A DNA stretch of 64,000 nt, from positions 23,559 to 87,558 of the forward strand of contig JABHDC010000256.1 of NCBI GenBank assembly GCA_018673255.1. The letters are read 5' to 3'. Source of the stretch: Gemmatimonadota bacterium (GTDB lineage Bacteria; Latescibacterota; UBA2968; UBA8231). The position numbers and the translations under genes were made by a program. Shown in pieces: positions 22,812 through 60,683 of this stretch. The notes beneath the pieces are model-generated. The model was not told where the DNA came from, made no database searches, and saw only the letters and a program-made list of their open reading frames with translations. Every line of letters starts with the position of its first letter. Positions within the stretch are counted from its first letter, which is position 1.

Positions 22812-24647
22812 TTAAGGGCACTCGTGCCGTCTGCAGGTGTAGCGTGTCTCGAAACACGTGGAGACAGCGCGTCGTCTTACGACCAGCCCCTGGCGTGTGT
22901 GCTCGGTGGAATCCATGTAGCTGTAGACCAGATGCACGGTCGTACCGGGTGCACCCGCCATGGCCACCCGGACGGTCTTGTCTGCCAGGACGAAGTCCAC
23001 CGACCAGTCGTCATCGGTGGTGAAGTGACGGATGTCGAACAGGTGCTGGTAGCCGTTCTCATCACCCAGTGATGTCAGCGCGACCGTGTCGTACTGGCAT
23101 TGCAGATCGCCCAGACAGTAGAAGAACCAGTCCACCGTGTGTTCTTCGTAGGCCTGCACGTCGAAGCGATCCTCCAGCTGGCTGTGGCCGACGCGTAACT
23201 GGCGGGTGTAGTTGACGGCGTCATAGATCCCCTTTGCGGTCACTCGCAGGCATCCGGCCTCGGCGTCGAAGAGTTCCACGATCCCGTCGGCCAGGGATTT
23301 CTGAGATTCCATATCGATGGCCACCGTGTTGTGCGACGGGGTCAGTCGTTGCCACTCGGCGAAGAGCCCCGAGCCGTAGCCGCCCGTGCCCAGATCGGCG
23401 GCTACCACATCGGCATCGAAGGCCAGCTCGATGTTCATGATGTCCGGATGCACGTGCAACTTCGTGTGGGTGCCGTATTTCACGAACACTTCGGTATCGC
23501 CGCTGCGCAACATGGCCATATAGGCATCGGCGTTGTTCACCGAGCCGAATTCGCCCACCCTCTCGCACTGGGGCCAGCGATTGAACAGGAGGCGCCACAG
23601 GCCGCCACTGCTCTGGCCCTGGTGCATCAGGCCGCAGGCCTGGCGAATCAGATCGTTGTCGAACAGCGCACTGGCACACTCGTACTGAGTGGCGTAGTTG
23701 TCCAGTCGCAGGACCGGGTGTGCGTCATTGGGATTGGGGAACTGGCCGTTGCGGAACAGCAGGCCCAGCGGGAATTCAAACATACCCTCCACCGTCGCCC
23801 GGATCTGGGGCAGTTCGGGCAGTTCGAAGTTGCGCCACTGACAGGCAAGCAACAGGTAACACAGGGGGTGCAGCGTGTAGAAGTGATAGTGCATGGAACC
23901 TTCGTACCACAGACCATCGGCCGTCACCCCACGCTGCAGCTGGTCGGGAATGCCGTATTTCCCGTGGAAGGCCCGTTCGATCAGTCGTTCGTCGTCGAAC
24001 AACACACCGATCATGGCCTCGGCGCACTTGATCCACACGGGAATGTTGTAGATCCGCGTTGCAAAGAAGTCGAAGAGGTCCGCTTCGCGGCTGAACAGAT
24101 CGCGGTGGTATCGTTCCAGTTCGGCTGCCGTGAACTCATCCCGAATCATCTCCAGTCCCAGCATGATCGTCATCATGCCCACGGCGTCGTCCAGATGCTG
24201 GTTCATGATCTTGCCCTGGAAACGCATGGCCACGGCCCGGTTGTCGAACCGGTCGTAGTTGTCGGCGTACAGATCCAGCACCTGGCGGATATAGGCGGGA
24301 TAACGCGGATCGGGCTCGAGGCGATGGGCCACTGCAGCGGCCAGGACCTGCTGGTTGGCTTTGCCGCGATACATGTTGTTCCAGGCCTCGTCCAGCTTGA
24401 CGCCCTCATTGTCGCGGCCACAGGCGGGGCAACTGTGCTGGTGCGGGCGAGACAGGTCGAAGCTCAACCGACCGGAGCACGTCTGGCAGTTGTAGTCGTG
24501 GCCCCAGCCGGCGCGCCGACCTGGGTCGTCGGCATAGGAGGCCATCCACTGTGACAGATCACGTTTCATTTCAGCGAAGAAGGCGGAGGCCCATTCGTCC
24601 TCAAATGCCAGTGTTCTGATCTGAGCCCAGTCGATGGTGTGAGACAT
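22812..24647 (-). CDS. Heparinase II/III-like polysaccharide lyase family protein
   Basis: The 611-residue protein has no signal peptide. Residues ~50-85 contain two CxxC pairs (CQTCSG and CPACGRD), a zinc-ribbon-like insert. Next come the alpha/alpha-toroid part (GKANQQVLAAAVAHRLEPD, GSMHYHFYTLHPLCYLL) and a C-terminal beta-sandwich with heparinase-type motifs: KLHVHPDIMNIELAFDADV, TPSHNTVAIDMESQKSL and YDAVNYTRQLRVGH. AGGGA seven bases upstream supports ATG 24647. Family members cleave uronate-containing glycans by elimination. Lack of an export signal suggests action on imported oligomers. Confidence 0.82.
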   Translation of the reverse strand: MSHTIDWAQIRTLAFEDEWASAFFAEMKRDLSQWMASYADDPGRRAGWGHDYNCQTCSGRLSFDLSRPHQHSCPACGRDNEGVKLDEAWNNMYRGKANQQVLAAAVAHRLEPDPRYPAYIRQVLDLYADNYDRFDNRAVAMRFQGKIMNQHLDDAVGMMTIMLGLEMIRDEFTAAELERYHRDLFSREADLFDFFATRIYNIPVWIKCAEAMIGVLFDDERLIERAFHGKYGIPDQLQRGVTADGLWYEGSMHYHFYTLHPLCYLLLACQWRNFELPELPQIRATVEGMFEFPLGLLFRNGQFPNPNDAHPVLRLDNYATQYECASALFDNDLIRQACGLMHQGQSSGGLWRLLFNRWPQCERVGEFGSVNNADAYMAMLRSGDTEVFVKYGTHTKLHVHPDIMNIELAFDADVVAADLGTGGYGSGLFAEWQRLTPSHNTVAIDMESQKSLADGIVELFDAEAGCLRVTAKGIYDAVNYTRQLRVGHSQLEDRFDVQAYEEHTVDWFFYCLGDLQCQYDTVALTSLGDENGYQHLFDIRHFTTDDDWSVDFVLADKTVRVAMAGAPGTTVHLVYSYMDSTEHTRQGLVVRRRAVSTCFETRYTCRRHECP

Positions 24648-52169: not shown

Positions 52170-52400
52170 ATGAAAATCCAGGTTCTGGGCACGGGTTGCC
52201 CCAAGTGTGAGAAGCTTGAGCAGGTCGCCGACCAGGCAGCTCGCGAGCTCGATCTCGACTACGAACAGGAGAAAGTCACCGACATCAATGAGATCACCGG
52301 GTTTGGTGTGATGATGACGCCAGCCCTGGTGGTGGATGGGCAGGTCAAGGTCAGCGGCAGTGTGCCGTCTCTCGATGATCTTAAGGCGATGCTGAAGTGA
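52170..52400 (+). CDS. Small thioredoxin-like (redox-active disulfide protein 2)
   Basis: The 76-residue protein MKIQVLGTGCPKCEKLEQ has active-site Cys10 and Cys13 (CPKC), then a cis-Pro element GVMMTPALVVDGQVKVSG, all of the Thioredoxin_3 family. The ~76-residue length is normal for it. GGAGATACAGGT precedes ATG 52170. It is the third gene of the ArsR operon and probably supplies reducing power or metal transfer to the permease. The hairpin repeat copy 1 starts 19 nt downstream. Confidence 0.9.
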   Translation: MKIQVLGTGCPKCEKLEQVADQAARELDLDYEQEKVTDINEITGFGVMMTPALVVDGQVKVSGSVPSLDDLKAMLK

Positions 52401-52418: not shown

Positions 52419-52604
52419 GCAGCGGTGGCCCGTCTCCATGTCCTTCGACTTCGCCTCTTATGGATGGGCCTGCCGTGAGTGGGTGAGGTATTCCGGGGGC
52501 GGTCCTTGTCGGACCGTTCTTTGAGATGAATGGTGGTGCGAATTTGACGAGCGATTCACGCCCATCCTCCAGATGCTACGCTCAGGAATGGAGGCCGGGC
52601 CACG
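52419..52604 (+). repeat. Hairpin repeat, full copy 1
   Basis: A 186-bp unit shared with 54893-55077 and 58011-58196. It starts GCAGCGGTGGCCCGTCTCCA and ends ATGGAGGCCGGGCCACG. Copy 1 differs at TTCGCC for TACGCC, AGATGCTACG for AGAGGCTGCG, and CTTTGAGATG in the middle. It lies in a 268-bp gap between convergent genes. Confidence 0.9.
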
Positions 52605-52668
52605 ATTGCCGATCGCACACTGAGCCAGATCAGTCAATCCACAGATCCGTGAATCCGCCGAGACGCTT

Positions 52669-54189
52669 CTACAGCGAATCGAGTAGATCCAGGAAGGAAC
52701 TCATCGTCTGTGGTAGATCGGTGAGCTGCCGGTTGCTGGCGCTCAGTGTTAGAGAGCTAGCGAAATTGCTGCATCGCAGGATGGATACGAGTTCCTTGAT
52801 CTCCGCGTTGCCTCGTGCCAGCAGGGCAGGCTGCCCGTCAAAGGTGCCATCCTCCACGTCGAGTTGATCGACGAAACGCTTCAGTCTGGCACCGTAGCTT
52901 TCGAGGAAGGGCTTTTCGCCAAGGCGGGCGAAGGCGGCGGGACGCAGGCACAGGCCTAGGTGAAGTCCCATGGTGCGCCACTCGGTGAACTGTTCCTGCA
53001 CCTGCTGGCCGCGCTGGGTTGTGTTGTAGGCACTGACATCGACATGTGCCTCTGCGGCCATGCTAGCCAGGGCTTCAACCTGTCGACAGATGGGCACGAC
53101 GAGTCTGTGCACGCTGCAAGCACGAGCCATGGACAGGAGGGCGTCGGGTGAGAACGAATCTGCGTTGCACCGCAGTGCCACGACCTCGCATCTCCGATCA
53201 CGCAGGGATGTCACGGCTTGCTCTACCGCCGACGGCCCTAACTCGACGATGTCCTTCCCGTTGAGACCGTCAAACTCGATGGCCTTGAGGTTGGCTTCTT
53301 CGCAGGCAGAGACGATTGTGTCGAGGGTCGATCCCCCGAGACTGGCAGCTGATGTGAGGGTGAAAGACTCGTCGCGTGACACGAGGGTGGAAGATGCGTC
53401 GCGCCTGGCGTGTTTTCGAATGGCGGTGCGTTGTTTGACGCAGTCGGCACAGAGGGGATTGTCACACAGGGCAAAGGCCGGATCGGCCCGACCGACCTCC
53501 AGCAGGTGGTCGATGACCCTGCTGCTCTTCATCAGCCGGACCGCGGCGTTGCCGATCTGCCCCAGCCGGACAAGACCAGCCTCACGCAAGCGTCGATCCA
53601 GTCCGATGAAGTCGCGATGGGGACCGGGGAAGTGGCGCCACGAACGGGTTACTTCTCCCTCCGGTGTGGAGAAGCCGGTCGCTTCGACGGTCTCCAGATA
53701 GGGCAACTCCAGCAGGGCTTCCACGCTGTGCAGTGTCGTGTTGCGGTCCTGGTCGACCCCCAGCAGACAGACATGGCCGCCCAGATCCGCCAGCCTCATA
53801 TAGGGCGTGTCCGCACCATGTGCGGTGGCGGCTTTCCAGTGGTCGTGGCAGATGTGCTCGGCTTCGGCCCCGATGGCGGCGACGCTGGCCTTTGGGTGAA
53901 TGCTCAATACCGCTTCGGGTCGAGAGGCGACAACTCGCGTTATCACACCCAGATCTCCGAAGGTCGGCACGACGAGGGTGCCCTTGGTACCCAGCACGGA
54001 GAGGAAGGCATCCACCACCGTGTTCGCGCCACCTGCTACGTCTCCCAGGCTCGACAGGGAACTGTGCAACAGGACGTTGTCGCCCTCGGCCAGTCCCAAC
54101 GCCTGAAGGCCAGCTTCGATCTGGTCACGCCGAAGCGGGGCCGGTCCGGGACGGTCTGTGCCACTGCCTGAGTGATCCGGGCCCGTCAT
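52669..54189 (-). CDS. Fusion of an AAC(3)-like acetyltransferase and a xylose-isomerase-like TIM barrel
   Basis: The 506-residue protein has two parts. Residues ~20-240 match the antibiotic N-acetyltransferase (AAC(3)/YokD/FrbF-like) fold: LAEGDNVLLHSSLSSLGDVA, SIHPKASVAAIGAEAEHICH, LADLGGHVCLLGVDQDRNTT. Residues ~285-506 are an AP-endonuclease-2-like barrel (ANLKAIEFDGLNGKDIVELG; HVDVSAYNTT; LGLCLRP). A Cys pair (CDNPLCADC) lies in the linker. ATG 54189 overlaps the cyclase gene by four bases. Domain calls are by motif; the combined activity is unknown. Confidence 0.75.
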   Translation of the reverse strand: MTGPDHSGSGTDRPGPAPLRRDQIEAGLQALGLAEGDNVLLHSSLSSLGDVAGGANTVVDAFLSVLGTKGTLVVPTFGDLGVITRVVASRPEAVLSIHPKASVAAIGAEAEHICHDHWKAATAHGADTPYMRLADLGGHVCLLGVDQDRNTTLHSVEALLELPYLETVEATGFSTPEGEVTRSWRHFPGPHRDFIGLDRRLREAGLVRLGQIGNAAVRLMKSSRVIDHLLEVGRADPAFALCDNPLCADCVKQRTAIRKHARRDASSTLVSRDESFTLTSAASLGGSTLDTIVSACEEANLKAIEFDGLNGKDIVELGPSAVEQAVTSLRDRRCEVVALRCNADSFSPDALLSMARACSVHRLVVPICRQVEALASMAAEAHVDVSAYNTTQRGQQVQEQFTEWRTMGLHLGLCLRPAAFARLGEKPFLESYGARLKRFVDQLDVEDGTFDGQPALLARGNAEIKELVSILRCSNFASSLTLSASNRQLTDLPQTMSSFLDLLDSL

Positions 54190-54818
54190 GGCAGTTCCGC
54201 CACGACGCAGCATGGCAACTGGGTCACCTGTGGGATTCGAGCGGGCAATACGGTCAACTGCACGGTTGGTGCTGTTACCTGATGCAGGTTGATGGGACAG
54301 CAGACGGTGGCGATTCCGGCACCAAAGAGCGCCTTGAACACGCCGTGCAGGGCTCGGCTCTCGTACACATCGGCGACCAGGAGTTTCACCCCCGTGGCGA
54401 TGATCCAGTCGATGGCGTCCAGTTCCAGATAGACGGATCGCTCCTGGATCTCATCGAAGCGTCTGGCGCCGAGGGCGTTGATGATCAGGGCCTGAGGATT
54501 GCCGTCCATTGCGGCCGCGCCTGCCAGTTCAGCTGCGCCGATCCCACCTGAGCCATCCTCCCGATCCAGGTGGATGACGGCTGATGGTAGACGATACAGT
54601 TGTTCAACTGGAAGCGTGGCGGCATCCTGGCCGTCATCGGTCTCCTCGATGTGACCGGGCAGGTCGAGATAGGTACCGGCCATGGAATCGTGGGCCATGT
54701 CATATACGATGGCGGTATACGTTGCGGCACCTTTGCCGAGCTGCAATCGTCGCGGGGTGGCCGTGGGGTGGCCATTTTGTTGCGACGGCAGGGGTAAGGT
54801 CAGGTCAACGAGTTTCAC
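54186..54818 (-). CDS. Cyclase/kynurenine formamidase-like protein with degenerate motif
   Basis: The 210-residue protein has the fold of the Cyclase (PF04199) family: VDLTLPLPSQQNGHP, then SMAGTYLDLPGHIEETDDGQ. The usual H-x-G-T-H-x-D-x-P-x-H metal motif reads S-M-A-G-T-Y-L-D-L-P-G-H, so the first two His ligands are replaced by Ser/Met and Tyr. It is therefore probably not a normal metal hydrolase. ATG 54818. It is coupled to the acetyltransferase-TIM barrel gene, which suggests a common pathway. Confidence 0.75.
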   Translation of the reverse strand: MKLVDLTLPLPSQQNGHPTATPRRLQLGKGAATYTAIVYDMAHDSMAGTYLDLPGHIEETDDGQDAATLPVEQLYRLPSAVIHLDREDGSGGIGAAELAGAAAMDGNPQALIINALGARRFDEIQERSVYLELDAIDWIIATGVKLLVADVYESRALHGVFKALFGAGIATVCCPINLHQVTAPTVQLTVLPARIPQVTQLPCCVVAELP

Positions 54819-54892
54819 CAGGTTGGTCCTCCGTTCACGTGTGCTGTCTCAGCTGGGTGCCACGCGGCAAGTCCGCTACTGCACGGTCTCGT

Positions 54893-55077
54893 CAGCGGTG
54901 GCCCGTCTCCATGTCCTTCGACTACGCCTCTTATGGATGGGCCTGCTGTAAGTGGGAGAGCTATCCCTGGGGCGGTCCTTGTCGGACCGTTCTCCGAGAT
55001 GCGTGGTGGTGCGAACTTAGCGAGTGTTTCACGCCCATCCTCCAGAGGCTGCGCTCAGGAATGGAGGCCGGGCCACG
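54893..55077 (+). repeat. Hairpin repeat, full copy 2
   Basis: A 185-bp copy. Paired segments, by position: 54898-54905/55069-55076, 54907-54912/55061-55066, 54914-54917/55057-55060, 54926-54931/55044-55049, 54935-54942/55033-55040, and an apical stem 54973-54978/54984-54989. The whole unit can therefore fold as one rod. Located between the cyclase start and the Fic stop. Confidence 0.9.
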
Positions 55078-55097
55078 ATGGTCGAACGCCGTTCCCG

Positions 55098-55712
55098 TTA
55101 TCGGTCGGGGTTCTGTTCGCTGAGATACTCCTCCAGAGGTTGTAGGTCGCCGGCATCCGCTTGCCGTAACGCGGCAATGTAGGTGGATCGTTCACTGCTG
55201 TCGGCATTGAGGGTGTCTGTCGCCCACACGAGGCGTGGCTCTCGGGCCAATCGTTCGACGACGGCATCACAGGCCAGTCGCGCCCATCGCCCATTCCCGT
55301 TGTTGAAGGGATGCACCCACACGAGTGTATGGTGGTAACGAGCAATGAACGGCAGCAGCGATTCGCTTCGTGCTTGCCAGCTTTCAGCGAACTCCATGGC
55401 GACGCGGCCAAGTTCGGAGGGAACCATTGCCGGTGGCACGCCGATGTTGGGCTGCGCGCCGGTTTCGGAGCGTAGCACGCCCGACCATTCCCACACTTGG
55501 TCGTACATGCGTCTGTGCAACTGCCGGTAGAAGGAGACGGTGAACACGTCACCGAGCCGCCCACGATCAATCCAGTCTACGGCGCTGACGATGTTGAGTC
55601 CTTCGGCCTCATCGAGTTGTTCACGTGTCGTGATGTCATCTCGAAGGAGCCCGGAAACATCATCAAGTGGCGTGGTTCCGTCCGGCTCGTTGTGGAACAT
55701 GCCATCAGTCAT
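55098..55712 (-). CDS. Fic-domain protein, mobile mystery protein B type
   Basis: The 204-residue protein starts MTDGMFHNEPDGTTPLDDVS and contains the full Fic motif HPFNNGNGRWAR (134-145), which binds Mg-ATP for AMPylation. The layout and the partner (Xre-type gene just upstream) match mobile mystery protein B, a Fic protein recurring on mobile elements. Its start ATG 55712 lies eight bases inside the antitoxin-like gene. The pair probably forms a toxin-antitoxin unit; target not known. Repeat copy 2 starts 21 nt beyond its stop. Confidence 0.88.
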   Translation of the reverse strand: MTDGMFHNEPDGTTPLDDVSGLLRDDITTREQLDEAEGLNIVSAVDWIDRGRLGDVFTVSFYRQLHRRMYDQVWEWSGVLRSETGAQPNIGVPPAMVPSELGRVAMEFAESWQARSESLLPFIARYHHTLVWVHPFNNGNGRWARLACDAVVERLAREPRLVWATDTLNADSSERSTYIAALRQADAGDLQPLEEYLSEQNPDR

Positions 55713-56172
55713 TCCACAGATCCGTGGGACGCTGGAACTGAAGCTCCTCGGCAAGATCCATGACGGTGGCGGCGAGTGTTTCACCTGCAATGGCAGAAGC
55801 CTCCAGCGCCTGAGACTCGTTGACGCGCCCGAGTTTCTGCTGGGCGCGGCTGCGTGCCTGGTCGGCGATCATGTCTTTCAGCGGCTGACGTGGAACCAAG
55901 GTGTAGTGGAGGTCACAACCCAGGGCAGCGGCAGCTCGCCTCAGTGAGGCAAGGGAGACAGCATCTCTGGCCTCGTTGCTTTCCAGTTGAGCGACACTCG
56001 GTCGAGCGACGCCGAGCCGCTTCGCCAGTTGGGTCTGATTCATTCCGAGTGCCTGGCGAATCGTCGCAATCCAGCCAGTACGTGGGCGTGGCTGCAAGTG
56101 AACCTTGGCCAGTGTGTCGTCGAGCTGTCGAGTGATCTGTCGCGCCACGCGCGGTGCCGGCTTGCGCTTCAT
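55705..56172 (-). CDS. Xre-family DNA-binding antitoxin-like protein, mobile mystery protein A type
   Basis: The 155-residue protein has a basic start, an Xre helix-turn-helix (ALGMNQTQLAKRLGVARPSV, then AQLESNEARDAVSLASLRRA, residues ~42-87) and a C-terminal region with HYTLVPRQPLKDMI. This matches mobile mystery protein A, always beside the Fic partner. GAGG precedes ATG 56172. It overlaps the Fic gene by eight bases. It likely represses its own promoter at the AT-rich palindromes to the right. Confidence 0.88.
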   Translation of the reverse strand: MKRKPAPRVARQITRQLDDTLAKVHLQPRPRTGWIATIRQALGMNQTQLAKRLGVARPSVAQLESNEARDAVSLASLRRAAAALGCDLHYTLVPRQPLKDMIADQARSRAQQKLGRVNESQALEASAIAGETLAATVMDLAEELQFQRPTDLWND

Positions 56173-56285
56173 TGTGGAAATCCTCGCGAAGTCAGTTAGA
56201 TATAGTAGGTATTAATATACGTATATCGAATGTAAACGTAGTTAATATAATGCGATATTATATCGATCTGGTAGGGTATATACTT
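56173..56285 (-). promoter_or_regulatory. AT-rich control region of the mobile mystery operon
   Basis: This stretch is far more AT-rich than its surroundings. It contains a perfect 12-bp palindrome ATATACGTATAT (56215-56226) and a further inverted repeat, TATAAT/ATTATA around 56252-56268. On the minus strand TTTACA and TAATAC with a 16-bp spacer form a plausible promoter overlapping the palindrome. This fits autoregulation by the Xre protein. Confidence 0.55.
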
Positions 56286-56373
56286 CGCGATAGCTGAAGA
56301 GCGAGTTCGAAGCGATCCTGTGGCTGTGCGTGCATCCACAGGACACGTTGAGGGCGACCGCTGAGGTGGCGGC

Positions 56374-56432
56374 GAAGAGGCCGATCTCTGGCGCGGGTCC
56401 TGGCCTGTTCGAGGCGGGCATAGTCGAAGTTG
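56374..56432 (-). pseudogene. Decayed fragment of a DUF4838-type gene
   Basis: On the minus strand, codons for YARLEQAR-T-R-A then a frameshifted GLF match the intact DUF4838 protein at 58434-60683 (YARLEQAKTRATGDLGLF, coding around 59078-59130). The near-identical string GGCCTGTTCGAGGCGGGC is shared. Only about 60 bp is recognisable; the rest of 56286-56600 is GC-rich sequence with no gene seen. Confidence 0.65.
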
Positions 56433-56685
56433 AGGGACTGGGTGGCGCGCCGACGGTGAGACGTGGTCGGAGTCCCGGGTGGATCATCCCCCGGGGGGCG
56501 GTTGGCGGGGCCGCCGGTGAAAGGGGGGCTCGTCACAGACTTGGCCCCGGCGCGCGATGACTGCACCCGGGTCCGCAGAGGCGATCGATTGGCGCCGTGA
56601 CTTTGCTTTCCAATGAGACATGGAATATCTCCCAGATCTCTACTTAGATCAGGAGATAATCACCTATGGAATGGAATATCGGCGT

Positions 56686-56750
56686 GTTTTCCACTTTCCG
56701 GTGGCACATATGAGGCAGTGGAGTAGAATCATGGGGGCATTTTCCACTTG
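56686..56750. mobile_element. Possible IS21-family end remnant
   Basis: TTTTCCACTT occurs twice, 56687-56696 and 56740-56749, 53 bp apart, with CGGTGGCACATATGAGGCAG between. This resembles the multiple short repeats at the ends of IS21-family elements, as recalled; no transposase is left in the 800-bp gap. Confidence 0.35.
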
Positions 56751-56974
56751 CATACGCGGCCATCGCCACGGGCCCATCGCCTCTGTGCCCGCCGCCGCTT
56801 CTCGAGATGAGTGGTGGCTGCGCTCAGGCCCCGGCGACCAGGTCACTGGAGAGAGTCTCGGATCTGCGTAACAGTTGCGAGGTTGTCGCCGATTCACGTC
56901 GAGTCGACCATATTGATCGATATGATCCGTATCGTCATCGAGCGAGCGGTCCGAACAACAAGGAGATTGGTAGA

Positions 56975-57514
56975 ATGAGCGACAAACAGGCGCGTGCCAT
57001 CCCCAAAGCCATGGCTGTGGGACTGAGCTTCTCTTTAGTGGCGATCCTGTTTGGATTTGTTCTGGGTGGGGTATTTGGCTCTGCGGAAAGCTCAATCAAG
57101 AAATGCCTGGACGATGCCGGAATTGCGGTTCTGGAATCGGTCTATGAGGGAGACGTTGCGGCGAAAGATGCCGTTGTGCAGAAGTCCTGGGCATACTTGA
57201 AAAGGGCACATCTCCACGGGGGAGCCATTGGGGCGGCAGCCCTTGGATGTATCGTGGCCCTCATCGTTGTGTGCCGTCGCGGAATGCTGGCCCAGCTGAG
57301 CGCGTTGGCTATTGGTTCGGGCGCATTGATCTACGCTGTGTTCTGGTTGCTGGCCGGGTTTGCGGCACCTGGCATGGGCAGTACTGGCGCTGCCAAGGAA
57401 TCGCTTTCGTATATGGCGATCCCGGGTGCGGGTCTTTGTATTCTGGGTTTGTGCGGGACACTTTACTCTGTAGTGAAGGAGTGCTTCTACTCTGAAATGG
57501 TGACGGACGAATGA
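56975..57514 (+). CDS. Four-helix membrane protein of unknown function
   Basis: The 179-residue protein has membrane segments at AVGLSFSLVAILFGFVLGGVF-type residues 13-33, GGAIGAAALGCIVALIVVCR, LSALAIGSGALIYAVFWLLA and IPGAGLCILGLCGTLYS. Between the first two is a charged loop (SSIKKCLDDAGIAVLESVYE). AGGAG nine bases before ATG 56975 is good. It overlaps the next gene by four bases. Base use is more AT-rich than the left part of the window. I do not recognise a family. Confidence 0.75.
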   Translation: MSDKQARAIPKAMAVGLSFSLVAILFGFVLGGVFGSAESSIKKCLDDAGIAVLESVYEGDVAAKDAVVQKSWAYLKRAHLHGGAIGAAALGCIVALIVVCRRGMLAQLSALAIGSGALIYAVFWLLAGFAAPGMGSTGAAKESLSYMAIPGAGLCILGLCGTLYSVVKECFYSEMVTDE

Positions 57515-57903
57515 AGACCCAGAACATCCTGGTCGCCGTAGCAGTTTTGTTTGGTCTCCTCACCATTTTCGCAGGCACTCGTGTTCTTCTCGGGTCAGAT
57601 CCGGGATACGTTGTTTATCGACCCCTGCTGATCTACAACACAGTGATGGGTGTTGTGTATGTCGCAACAGGTATCATCGCATGGCGCAGCATCAAACAGG
57701 GCATGTATGTGGCAGCTGCCATATTCGTTCTCAATCTCATCGTGCTGACAGCAATCTTCTTTCTCTACACAGAAGGCAGCCCAGTTGCTGTGGAAAGCCT
57801 TCGCGCCATGTCTTTTCGAACCGTTGTATGGTTCGTTCTGCTTGCTGGGTTCTGGTGGTTATGTCGCAGAAACGAACTCAACGGTAATCTGTCGATGAGA
57901 TGA
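57511..57903 (+). CDS. Second small membrane protein, coupled to the preceding one
   Basis: The 130-residue protein has four hydrophobic helices: LVAVAVLFGLLTIFAGTRVL, LLIYNTVMGVVYVATGIIAW, YVAAAIFVLNLIVLTAIFFL and FRTVVWFVLLAGFWWLC. ATG 57511 overlaps the previous stop (ATGA), so the two are made together. It ends 30 nt before the duplicated hairpin repeat. No family recognised; a two-part membrane complex is inferred. Confidence 0.75.
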   Translation: MKTQNILVAVAVLFGLLTIFAGTRVLLGSDPGYVVYRPLLIYNTVMGVVYVATGIIAWRSIKQGMYVAAAIFVLNLIVLTAIFFLYTEGSPVAVESLRAMSFRTVVWFVLLAGFWWLCRRNELNGNLSMR

Positions 57904-57933
57904 CCGATCGTCCTGGCGTTGGCTTTGAACGAG

Positions 57934-58010
57934 GCAGCGGTGGCCCGTCTCCATGTCCTTCGACTACGCCTCTTATGGATGGGCCGGTTTGGTAGGTGTG
58001 AGCTATTCCG
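57934..58010 (+). repeat. Hairpin repeat, partial 5' copy
   Basis: Only the first ~77 bp of the repeat (GCAGCGGTGGCCCG to AGCTATTCCG) is present, joined directly to full copy 3. The join falls at the variable arm before the apical stem, as from a replication slip or unequal exchange. Confidence 0.88.
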
Positions 58011-58196
58011 GCAGCGGTGGCCCGTCTCCATGTCCTTCGACTACGCCTCCTATGGATGGGTCGATTTGGCGGGCGTGAGCTATTTCGGGGGCGGTCCTTG
58101 TCGGACCGTTCTGCGAGATGAGTGGTGGTGCGAATTGGGAGGGTGGTTCACGCCCATCCTCCAGAGGCTGCGCTCAGGAATGGAGGCCGGGCCACG
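58011..58196 (+). repeat. Hairpin repeat, full copy 3
   Basis: A 186-bp copy. It keeps both outer arms and the apical CGGTCC-TTGTC-GGACCG stem; GGATGGGT replaces GGATGGGC and can still form a G-T pair. The rest of the 57904-58433 gap (58197-58433) shows no gene. Confidence 0.9.
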
Positions 58197-58433
58197 GATC
58201 CCTGGGCGACAGTAGGGAATTGCTCACCCAGTACAGGGGACTGGCTGTTGAAGAAATGAGACCCTGCAGCAAGGAGGCCCTTGGCTTCATCAAGGATCTC
58301 AATTCTCAATAGAGAGAGTCTCGGATCTCCGTTTTGCCTTGTCCCAACCCACGAAGGTGGATGAGGCGTCAACCCCACGCAGCCAATCGCCCAGAGCATC
58401 AACCCGGGGTGGTCGCCGCGTGGGGCTCAATTA

Positions 58434-60683
58434 CTACTGAACCACAATCTCATCAGCGAAGATCCATGCCTTGCCACCGGCGCCACCGTGCCATTCAGGA
58501 CAGGTCTTCCGATTCGTGGCCTTCACCTTCACGTAGCGAGCCACAGTCGAGGCGGCGGTGATGCTGAAGCTCTCGGTCTGCACGCCGGCTTCTCGTTCAT
58601 CGGTGGTGACCGTCGTTGAACCGAAGTCCTCGAAGGTCTGGCCATCCGTGGACAGGGCTACATCCAGTTGGAGGGGCATGAAGAGCCAGGAGCCGACAAC
58701 CTGCAGGAAATCGATGCTGACACTTTCGATCTGGCGTTCCTTGCCGAGGTCGATGGTGGCCTCGAGGTCTTCGCCTTCCCAACCGAGCCAGCCATAGCGG
58801 AAGTCGACGGGGCCCTGCAGTCCATCGGTGAGGGTGGAGTCACCGTCGGCGGGATACTTGGGGCTGAAGGGTGTGGTAAAGGTGGGGGCGATGCCGACGG
58901 CGAGGTGTTCGACGGGGACTCGCTTGAGGACTTCCAGATAACGCTCGCGGTATTCGGCGGGTGTGGTGTGCCATTCGGTGACGCGGGTGGCGCCCTGTTG
59001 TTGTGCGGTGGTGACGAAGTGGTCGAGGCGTTCGAGGATCTCGGGGCGAGGTACCCAACCGGTGTCGGTCTTGTTGAAGAGGCCGAGGTCTCCGGTGGCG
59101 CGCGTCTTGGCCTGTTCGAGGCGGGCGTAGTGGATGGGGAGTCGGGCCCAGGCGACGCGTTGGAGAAAGGTGGGCTCCTCGGCGACGGCTTCTTCGGCGG
59201 CATCGAACTGCGCTTCGTAGGTGGTCAGCAGTTTGGGTGTCAGGTAGGTCCTGGACGCACTGATCGGATTACCAAAGATGTTCAGGCCCGCTCCAGACAG
59301 GGCCAGTGCATCGTGCTGGGTATCGATGTAGGTCCGCAGATGTGCGCCAGCCGCTCCATAGTAGCCGACCAGGAATTCATCGATGATCTCGTCGGCATTG
59401 GCATCGGGGTTCCACAGGAGCTTGGCGATGACATAGGTGCGCAGCTCGGCCCATTCGCCACCGACTTCACGATTGCCCTGCTGGAAGTGGGCGATGGCGT
59501 GTTGGTCGACGAAGTAGCGGAGATTCGGCTGCAGGACGCGCAGGTTCGGGAAGGGGCTGATGAGATTGGCGAACTGGATGACGTAATCCCAGATCAGCAG
59601 TCGATCGGTGACACGGGCCCAATCCTCCAACTCGGCGCGGAAGGCGGCAGCGGATGGATCGGTGGCCACGGGTCGGGATCGATTCAGCTCGATGGGCGCC
59701 AGCACGATCAGGACATTGTCGGCGGGTCGAAGGTCTTTGGGTGCTTTGCGCGAATACTGGTAGGCGAGGGTGGAGAGGGTCTTGTCGGGGAATTCGGCGG
59801 CGAGGCGATTGACGAAGGCGATCAGTGATCCGGAGTGTGCCTCTTCGCGGGCGTCGATGGCGGCACAGTTCGTGCACGTGCAAAACCCCTGGGTGTCGTT
59901 CTGGCTCACGGACCAGTAGTGCTTCTCCGGTTCCGCTTCGATGCGCTCACGCAGGGCATCGCGCAGGGCCAGATACAAGCCCTCATTGGTCAGACACAAC
60001 TGGCCATTGGGGATTCGACGGCCATTCACCTCAGCGAACCATTCCGGATGGGTCTCGAAGTGCTCTTCCGGTGGAATCAGGGGTGCGAAGGTGTGGACCC
60101 ACATACCCCACTCATAGATGAAGCGATCGAGTCGATGCCACTCGGCGAAGGCCGGGTCTTTGGCAGGCGTGTAGAAGTCCTCACGGAATTCGATGATGGG
60201 GACTTCGGTGCGTTCGAGACCGTCCGGCAGCGTGATCTCACCGTCGGGCACCTGGAGGGCACCGGGTGTCCACAGGCGGAAGCCAAGCTCTTCGAGGAGT
60301 TCGTAGGCCCCGTAGATCGGTCCCTTGTCGTGACCGCCGATGATGGTGACCTGCTTGTCAGATGCGTGCAGGTGGAAGCCATCAGGACCGAGGCTGGCGA
60401 CGTCGACATGGGTAGCCAGGTCGCTGGTGGCGTCGCCGGGGCCGATGAGGATCTGCAGGTCTGACTTGCCTGAGGCGTCACCGATGGTGGGTGGGGTTTT
60501 GAGGATCATGCCCAGGTGCTCGACGAGGACGTCAGCGGCACGGGTCTGGGCGGCATTCGGCGTGTCGGGCAGCACGATCTGGACGTGCATCTCGGTCTCC
60601 TTGCAGGCCAACAGAGAGAAGGTGAGGAGCAGGAGGGCTGTGCAGAGGGTGGCGGTGCGTCGTGACAAGGGACCTGGCATCAT
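58434..60683 (-). CDS. DUF4838 family lipoprotein with C-terminal carbohydrate-binding-like domain
   Basis: The 749-residue protein has a lipobox (LLAC) after LLLLTFSLLAC. Residues ~30-135 are an alpha-glucuronidase-type N-terminal domain (LGPDGFHLHASDKQVTIIGG). The DUF4838 region follows (QNDTQGFCTCTNCAAIDARE; LSTLAYQYSRKAP; LLIWDYVIQFANLISPFPNL). Residues ~610-749 form an F5/8C-like sandwich (IDLGKERQIESVSIDFLQVV; ARYVKVKATNRKTCPEWHGG). Such proteins are thought to act on glycans, but activity is not shown. ATG 60683. A decayed relative lies at 56374-56432. Confidence 0.85.
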   Translation of the reverse strand: MMPGPLSRRTATLCTALLLLTFSLLACKETEMHVQIVLPDTPNAAQTRAADVLVEHLGMILKTPPTIGDASGKSDLQILIGPGDATSDLATHVDVASLGPDGFHLHASDKQVTIIGGHDKGPIYGAYELLEELGFRLWTPGALQVPDGEITLPDGLERTEVPIIEFREDFYTPAKDPAFAEWHRLDRFIYEWGMWVHTFAPLIPPEEHFETHPEWFAEVNGRRIPNGQLCLTNEGLYLALRDALRERIEAEPEKHYWSVSQNDTQGFCTCTNCAAIDAREEAHSGSLIAFVNRLAAEFPDKTLSTLAYQYSRKAPKDLRPADNVLIVLAPIELNRSRPVATDPSAAAFRAELEDWARVTDRLLIWDYVIQFANLISPFPNLRVLQPNLRYFVDQHAIAHFQQGNREVGGEWAELRTYVIAKLLWNPDANADEIIDEFLVGYYGAAGAHLRTYIDTQHDALALSGAGLNIFGNPISASRTYLTPKLLTTYEAQFDAAEEAVAEEPTFLQRVAWARLPIHYARLEQAKTRATGDLGLFNKTDTGWVPRPEILERLDHFVTTAQQQGATRVTEWHTTPAEYRERYLEVLKRVPVEHLAVGIAPTFTTPFSPKYPADGDSTLTDGLQGPVDFRYGWLGWEGEDLEATIDLGKERQIESVSIDFLQVVGSWLFMPLQLDVALSTDGQTFEDFGSTTVTTDEREAGVQTESFSITAASTVARYVKVKATNRKTCPEWHGGAGGKAWIFADEIVVQ

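Follow-up and report, generated by a model that had tools for sequence, protein, structure and literature searches.

A 186-nucleotide self-folding intergenic repeat that carries a split REP-like core

Introduction

Repetitive extragenic palindromic (REP) sequences are old and common. In the available part of their description (Di Nocera et al. 2013, PMC3733652), the CGTC-tagged REPs are intergenic palindromes of 20–40 bp with stems of 8–9 bp and loops of 4–5 nt, often arranged as inverted (HH) pairs and tending to sit behind stop codons. A REPIN, as far as the accessible text defines it, consists of two complete inverted REPs flanked by RAYT links, with conserved ends, a variable spacer and many dispersed copies (PMC3116915, Bertels and Rainey 2011). 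The TnpAREP transposase of E. coli depends on a bulge that is conserved in the stem of its REP (PMC8266576). Here we analyse a 186-nt self-folding repeat found in positions 23,559 to 87,558 of contig JABHDC010000256.1, a stretch of 64 kb referred to throughout as the window. The source is an uncultured bacterium; the named relatives of one of its proteins, which is EF-G-like, carry the labels Gemmatimonadota (64%) and Latescibacterota (57%), and closer ones reach 83%, leaving aside one match of 100%. Three full copies are present, all on the plus strand and all intergenic, and their arms hold the two halves of a core that occurs elsewhere as a compact REP-like palindrome. The repeat is a new family, of an ordinary class in unusual form, and we favour, with some reserve, the view that it belongs to the REP/REPIN kind as an oversized, 186-bp and non-autonomous DNA hairpin that probably spread as a parasite.

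The window element overlaps with the described systems in some features and departs from them in others. Like the CGTC-tagged REPs it is an intergenic palindrome, but its copies have no CGTC (or TGTC/CCTC) end tag and finish in ...GGGCCACG (reversed, CGTGGCCC); at 186 nt it also contains helices TCCT/AGGA and GCCTCT/AGAGGC round an internal loop, and a long inner arm. Membership in a CGTC or GTAG family is not claimed, since neither tag nor size agrees, and the comparison of the core with the four CGTC-tagged families is one with their published description, as far as accessible, rather than with their consensus letters. With REPINs, as partly described, it shares the appearance of a mobile unit, conserved ends, a variable spacer of kept length, a long hairpin, tandem arrays and a one-sided unpaired tail. 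It differs in that each window copy has one core split between two arms, and in that no RAYT was found within the 64 kb of the window, whereas RAYT-mobilised elements have copies flanking the gene. E. coli REPs and TnpAREP (group 2) likewise involve a stem broken by a conserved mismatch or bulge, which the transposase there needs, but they have a GTAG tag, a length of 29–37 nt and a different sequence in the part of the source that describes them (PMC8266576). ERIC, NEMIS and the enterobacterial RU units (103–168 bp), in the accessible portions of PMC2229807 and PMC2759123, are also intergenic, non-autonomous palindromes of 100–200 bp that form transcribable hairpins; they are families of other bacteria, and the likeness is drawn from their description.

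Copies and fold of the window element

The full copies (Table 1) are 86.6–90.3% identical in pairwise comparison, with no insertions or deletions. They lie where the original prediction had placed them, on the plus strand and between genes, with one further base, at 54892, belonging to copy 2. A fourth copy, consisting of the 5′ 77 nt only and directly abutting copy 3, had been overlooked; its variable loop is nearer to that of copy 3 than to those of copies 1 and 2. The ends are fixed. CAGCGG forms the left end in 4/4 copies and GGGCCACG the right end in 3/3 full copies, the flanks outside are unrelated, and the element bears inverted ends GTGGCCCG/CGGGCCAC. A classical IS-derived MITE would combine terminal inverted repeats with a target-site duplication and with an IS that has the same ends. 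As had been noted before, there is no clear target-site duplication when the flanks are compared by eye, which is expected for transposition of single-stranded DNA, yet equally for other routes. No further copies were found in the 64 kb by blastn or by a covariance model built from the three full copies; the one additional match of the model, on the minus strand at 52424–52609, is copy 1 in reverse reading. This model is insensitive to fragments, as it also missed the half copy. A possible decayed scrap (Table 1) combines a weak blastn match to copy 3 (E 0.009) with a one-mismatch version of CTNCGCTCAGGA.

The nested arms and the apical CGGTCC-TTGTC-GGACCG stem that had been proposed are present. 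A rod of 40 pairs is satisfied in 118 of 120 cells, against 25–49% of cells when the partner is shifted by 1–3 columns. The arms are indeed conserved and the loops variable: 6/126 columns vary in the arms and apical stem and 27/60 in the loops (Fisher p = 1e-10, with the two column groups defined after inspection of the alignment), and the variable loops keep a constant length across copies. The RNA fold of copy 2 is stronger than that of dinucleotide shuffles on both strands (z of -4.0 on the plus and -5.1 on the minus strand). For copies 1 and 3, however, the RNA fold of lowest predicted energy keeps the outer arms and pairs the inner arms elsewhere, which speaks against the complete rod; the best support for the rod therefore comes from conservation and not from folding energy. 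Co-variation of the arms, which the original prediction had named as support, is not seen among the window copies (0 double changes, 37/40 pairs invariant). As those 37 pairs never vary, the copies are uninformative on this point, and co-variation was found only for the shared inner module as it occurs in a second element, in another genome, described below.

The split core and a second element

The arms of the window element carry the split core TCCTTCGAC-TNC-GCC...GGC-TNC-GCTCAGGA. Both halves of the compact core TCCTTCGACTNCGCTCAGGA are thus present, but separated, and the unsplit core is absent from the window within 3 mismatches. A scan of the whole sequence collection with the 5′ motif CCATGTCCTTCGACTNCGCC returned 18 stretches, eight of them in G001, a metagenome-assembled genome (MAG; JABDGH01) labelled Verrucomicrobia bacterium. 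The other 10 have no 3′ partner within 150 nt, judged by eye. The G001 copies bear, downstream, the 3′ half GGCTNCGCTCAGGA, for which the query had no letters, and the window copies have the same opposite their 5′ half. Each full copy has CTNCGCTCAGGA once, where it can pair, and the window contains no fourth occurrence; the chance of finding 11 given bases within 180 positions is about 4e-5 (arithmetic, equal base frequencies). Having served as the query, the 5′ half does not count as separate evidence.

G001 contains 42 matches of its own element of about 295 bp, at about 40 places in the genome. This element is made of two inverted hairpin modules of about 77 nt; most modules occur in such pairs, at least 13 of which span 294–297 bp, and no duplication is visible by eye at its ends. 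For 45 of the 46 modules (one without a 3′ half was omitted) we aligned the sequences and examined a structure derived from these same sequences: an outer helix A/G-TCCT with AGGA-T, a G-C pair, a bulged A, a C-G pair, TNC opposite TNC, and an inner GCC/GGC. Pairing holds in 99.6% of 449 cells and in 27–50% for slid versions; 8/10 pairs are changed on both sides, with 56 doubly changed cells as against 15.9 in shuffles. The bulged-A pairing of the G001 module is well supported, and the window copies fit it as well. Marked compensatory changes were observed between two module subtypes of the G001 element (e.g. L032:1502-1798 and L034:1326-1621).

The two long elements have the same split core and the same bulged-A internal loop. 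They differ in that the G001 element has two inverted modules, ends CGTCATCC/GGATGACG, the core at its ends (22 nt inside in the window element) and an unrelated inner part. The inverted pair that defines a REPIN is accordingly found in expanded form in the G001 element and is missing from the window element. G001 also holds four unsplit cores, each followed by TGAC (the CGTC-type tag reversed). The long forms thus resemble a compact palindrome of REP type whose TNC loop has been opened, so that each side carries a TNC.

Distribution of the core

The exact unsplit core was found in 2/145 genomes of the phylum of G001 (4 and 1 copies), in 1/299 genomes of the phylum of a Clostridia MAG (that MAG itself, 3 copies) and in 5/299 genomes of a third phylum (28, 8, 4, 1 and 1 copies), while a reversed-pattern control gave 0 in all rows listed. 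It is also present on 63 stretches (L112-L174) of IMG/VR contigs classed as viral, where TGAC comes next in 21/66 matches. A near form occurs at 59 places on eight plasmids of Sphingomonas parapaucimobilis. Among the copies listed, TGAC adjoins the core in 8/8 from G001, G179 and the Clostridia MAG versus 0/10 from the third phylum. The core with TGAC in the former three resembles the CGTC-tagged REPs, as partly described, in tag and size, and G001 shares with them the occurrence of inverted pairs. The exact split form with a gap of 10–40 nt, shorter than the gap in the window element, was found in 2/60 relatives of G001 (23 and 1 copies).

Searches at larger scale returned no full-length relative of the window element. 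Copy 2 had no match in plasmid and phage collections, and five patterns of the long forms gave 0 matches in viral contigs. A search of open-access text, which does not reach lettering within figures, found no paper on a repeat with such core letters, and nothing related on intergenic palindromic repeats of Latescibacter.

Interpretation and alternatives

The original prediction offered two readings, a structured RNA or a miniature non-autonomous element of new-looking kind. The second gains support from full-length units with fixed ends in unrelated flanks, from the multi-copy core in other genomes and from the G001 element; the first finds no Rfam match. In the mechanism we propose, the element would fold while its DNA is single-stranded, as it is on the lagging strand, and its broken stem (outer helix, U-C mismatches, G-C, bulged A, C-G, TNC/TNC, inner helix) would be the recognition handle for a transposase or another strand-processing enzyme acting in trans. 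Copies would land in spacers, mostly just past stop codons, where they would do little harm and may enter mRNA tails. A Y1 (HUH) transposase such as RAYT is a candidate enzyme by analogy rather than from evidence at this locus; the guess is attractive because TnpAREP depends on a bulge in the REP stem.

A number of results weigh against a mobile REP-like repeat. Dispersal is not demonstrated, as there are just four copies, all confined to 5.8 kb of the 64 kb. Full-length relatives of copy 2 were sought by DNA in 387 genomes of the phylum of G001, and by a copy-2 covariance model with stricter filters in 194 genomes of that phylum, and both searches, run without a positive control and in a phylum to which the window need not belong, gave 0. 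Scored with a covariance model built from the G001 modules, the window copies reach 7.3–8.5 bits (E 2.5–5.6) and do not rise above background, the best match, at 13.8 bits, lying elsewhere; that the window element has a far longer inner arm is a likely cause of the poor score. On a 17-column score for the 3′ half, which takes in columns fixed in G001 yet different in the window, copy 1 is equalled by 546/5000 random stretches and copies 2 and 3 by 47/5000, so that the value is unremarkable for copy 1 and modest for the other two. The z-scores of the folds with DNA parameters are likewise modest (-1.5, -2.9 and -1.6 for copies 1, 2 and 3). Since the window element has no CGTC/GTAG tag, the shared core could also be convergent.

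The remaining points against it concern the enzyme. A profile from 15 RAYT-like open reading frames (ORFs) found no RAYT among 1261 window ORFs. This agrees with the earlier failure to see a transposase; one of another type may still lie elsewhere in the window, since the comparison with Pfam covered 10 of its proteins. The three genomes in which the unsplit core is present in 28, 8 and 4 copies lack a Y1_Tnp gene, and no full core was seen beside RAYT at any of 15 loci and 7 more that were examined. Among the core-bearing genomes RAYT is lacking in 3/5 and otherwise does not adjoin the core; the single RAYT of G001 has inverted repeats of a different kind on its two sides. The accessible part of PMC3733652, too, reports no dedicated transposase for CGTC repeats.

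A wider version of the same idea is doubtful. In it, the bulged-A/TNC stem would be the handle of a RAYT-independent enzyme that spreads 28-nt CGTC-type repeats as well as the 186-bp and ~295-bp hairpins across several phyla, the long forms having arisen when the TNC loop was opened, an inner arm inserted and TNC duplicated. 

No mobilising enzyme is known for REPs of the CGTC kind (PMC3733652). A core common to compact repeats and to two different long elements, whose internal loop is backed by compensatory changes in one of the two, is a concrete substrate for finding one, and suggests a route from short repeats to longer mobile units. If the likeness to compact REPs were mere convergence, one more lineage-specific palindromic repeat would be left.

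Alternatively, the repeat could be a structured non-coding RNA, or an RNA part of the transcripts of its neighbours, duplicated locally and with its arms selected at the RNA level. That copy 2 folds strongly as RNA whichever strand is taken, and that arms and apical stem are conserved beside loops that vary at constant length, would suit this. We nevertheless regard it as unlikely. Rfam has 0 families above the gathering score in the 64 kb (looser matches, E 6.5–8, are chance-level long non-coding RNAs outside the copies), by which a known Rfam RNA is ruled out as the identity of the repeat. The single promoter-like match in the region, at 56701-56729, lies outside the copies, and one match compares with 1.9 expected by chance. 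Moreover, the copies sit at gene 3′ ends in both orientations and show no compensatory change among themselves, and the core reappears elsewhere as a compact dispersed repeat.

A sharper form of the mobile-repeat reading, in which a RAYT/TIRYT-type Y1 transposase encoded elsewhere in the genome moves the element and recognises its GGTGGCCCG end, is quite unlikely. It draws on the lone RAYT/Y1 transposase gene of G001, which is bordered by inverted repeats of about 50 bp beginning GGGTGGCCCGG, with 9 nt in common with the end of the window element. G001 is a different organism, its terminal repeat does not contain the core, and nine GC-rich nucleotides make at best a weak link. At the other RAYT loci, GGTGGCCCG was never an inverted pair (0/14, with a single occurrence at L087, and 0/7 further loci), and the RAYT terminal repeat was therefore dropped as a clue to the enzyme. 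Each flanking repeat of the G001 gene (L028:553-1235) forms two stem-loops, the second of which differs between the ends with its pairing kept.

Very unlikely is a decayed local segmental duplication, neither mobile nor functional: the copies are clustered and lie beside gene scraps (DUF4838-like, ~56389-56434) and a tandem half copy, but no flanks are duplicated with them, and neutral decay would not spare the arms and the apical stem. Integron attC sites, which are typically shorter than 186 bp, have core sites RYYYAAC/GTTRRRY. That the copies are attC-like sites between cassettes (acetyltransferase/cyclase, Fic/Xre, membrane-protein pair) is most improbable and attC was rejected as their identity, for although same-orientation hairpins divide 5.8 kb into blocks of one or two genes, and three independent sites would fall at random in 5.8 of 64 kb with a probability of about 0.02 (arithmetic), RYYYAAC/GTTRRRY is absent from the ends by eye and the genes face both ways; an integrase was sought only among the 10 proteins scanned.

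Feature positions and genomic surroundings

Table 1. Positions of the repeat copies and of their parts in the window
Feature	Position	Strand	Remark
Copy 1, full 186 nt	52419..52604	+	starts 18 nt past the stop codon (52398-52400) of a thioredoxin-like gene
Copy 2, full 186 nt	54892..55077	+	ends 20 nt past the stop of a Fic gene on the minus strand (55098-55790)
Copy 4, 5′ 77 nt only	57934..58010	+	starts 30 nt past the stop of gene 57511-57903; abuts copy 3
Copy 3, full 186 nt	58011..58196	+	
Split REP-like core, 5′ half, copy 1	52441..52458	+	element positions 23-40; TCCTTCGACTNCGC at 52441
Split core, 3′ half, copy 1	52571..52587	+	element positions 153-169; CTNCGCTCAGGA at 52576; one helix mismatch
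Split core, 5′ half, copy 2	54914..54931	+	
Split core, 3′ half, copy 2	55044..55060	+	
Split core, 5′ half, half copy	57956..57973	+	
Split core, 5′ half, copy 3	58033..58050	+	one helix mismatch
Split core, 3′ half, copy 3	58163..58179	+	
Apical stem-loop CGGTCC-TTGTC-GGACCG, copy 1	52500..52516	+	identical in all three copies
Apical stem-loop, copy 2	54973..54989	+	identical in all three copies
Apical stem-loop, copy 3	58092..58108	+	identical in all three copies
Possible decayed, shortened element scrap	56799..56829	+	GAGATGAGTGGTGG then CTGCGCTCAGG

The three insertion sites are 18–30 nt past stop codons, and the repeat is read in both orientations relative to the genes. The neighbours identified by comparing 10 window proteins with Pfam are an ArsP-type permease, an Antibiotic_NAT-domain protein, a cyclase, a Fic and Xre-type pair and a DUF4838 protein; two small proteins have no Pfam match. 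A conserved protein frame, named beforehand as an outcome that would speak against the repeat, was not seen: stops leave no frame on either strand open throughout all three copies, and a coding frame is ruled out as its identity. An intrinsic terminator is ruled out likewise, as none of the 10 terminator-like sites (GC stem with a T run) between 52300 and 58500 lies within a copy. The spacer at 56389-56434 matches the DUF4838 gene (59096-59141) over 46 nt (85%), which suggests a scrap of the gene in the spacer. A 27-nt repeat (89%), GAGAGAGTCTCGGATCT..., occurs at 56843-56869 and 58306-58332, each time some way past an element or scrap.

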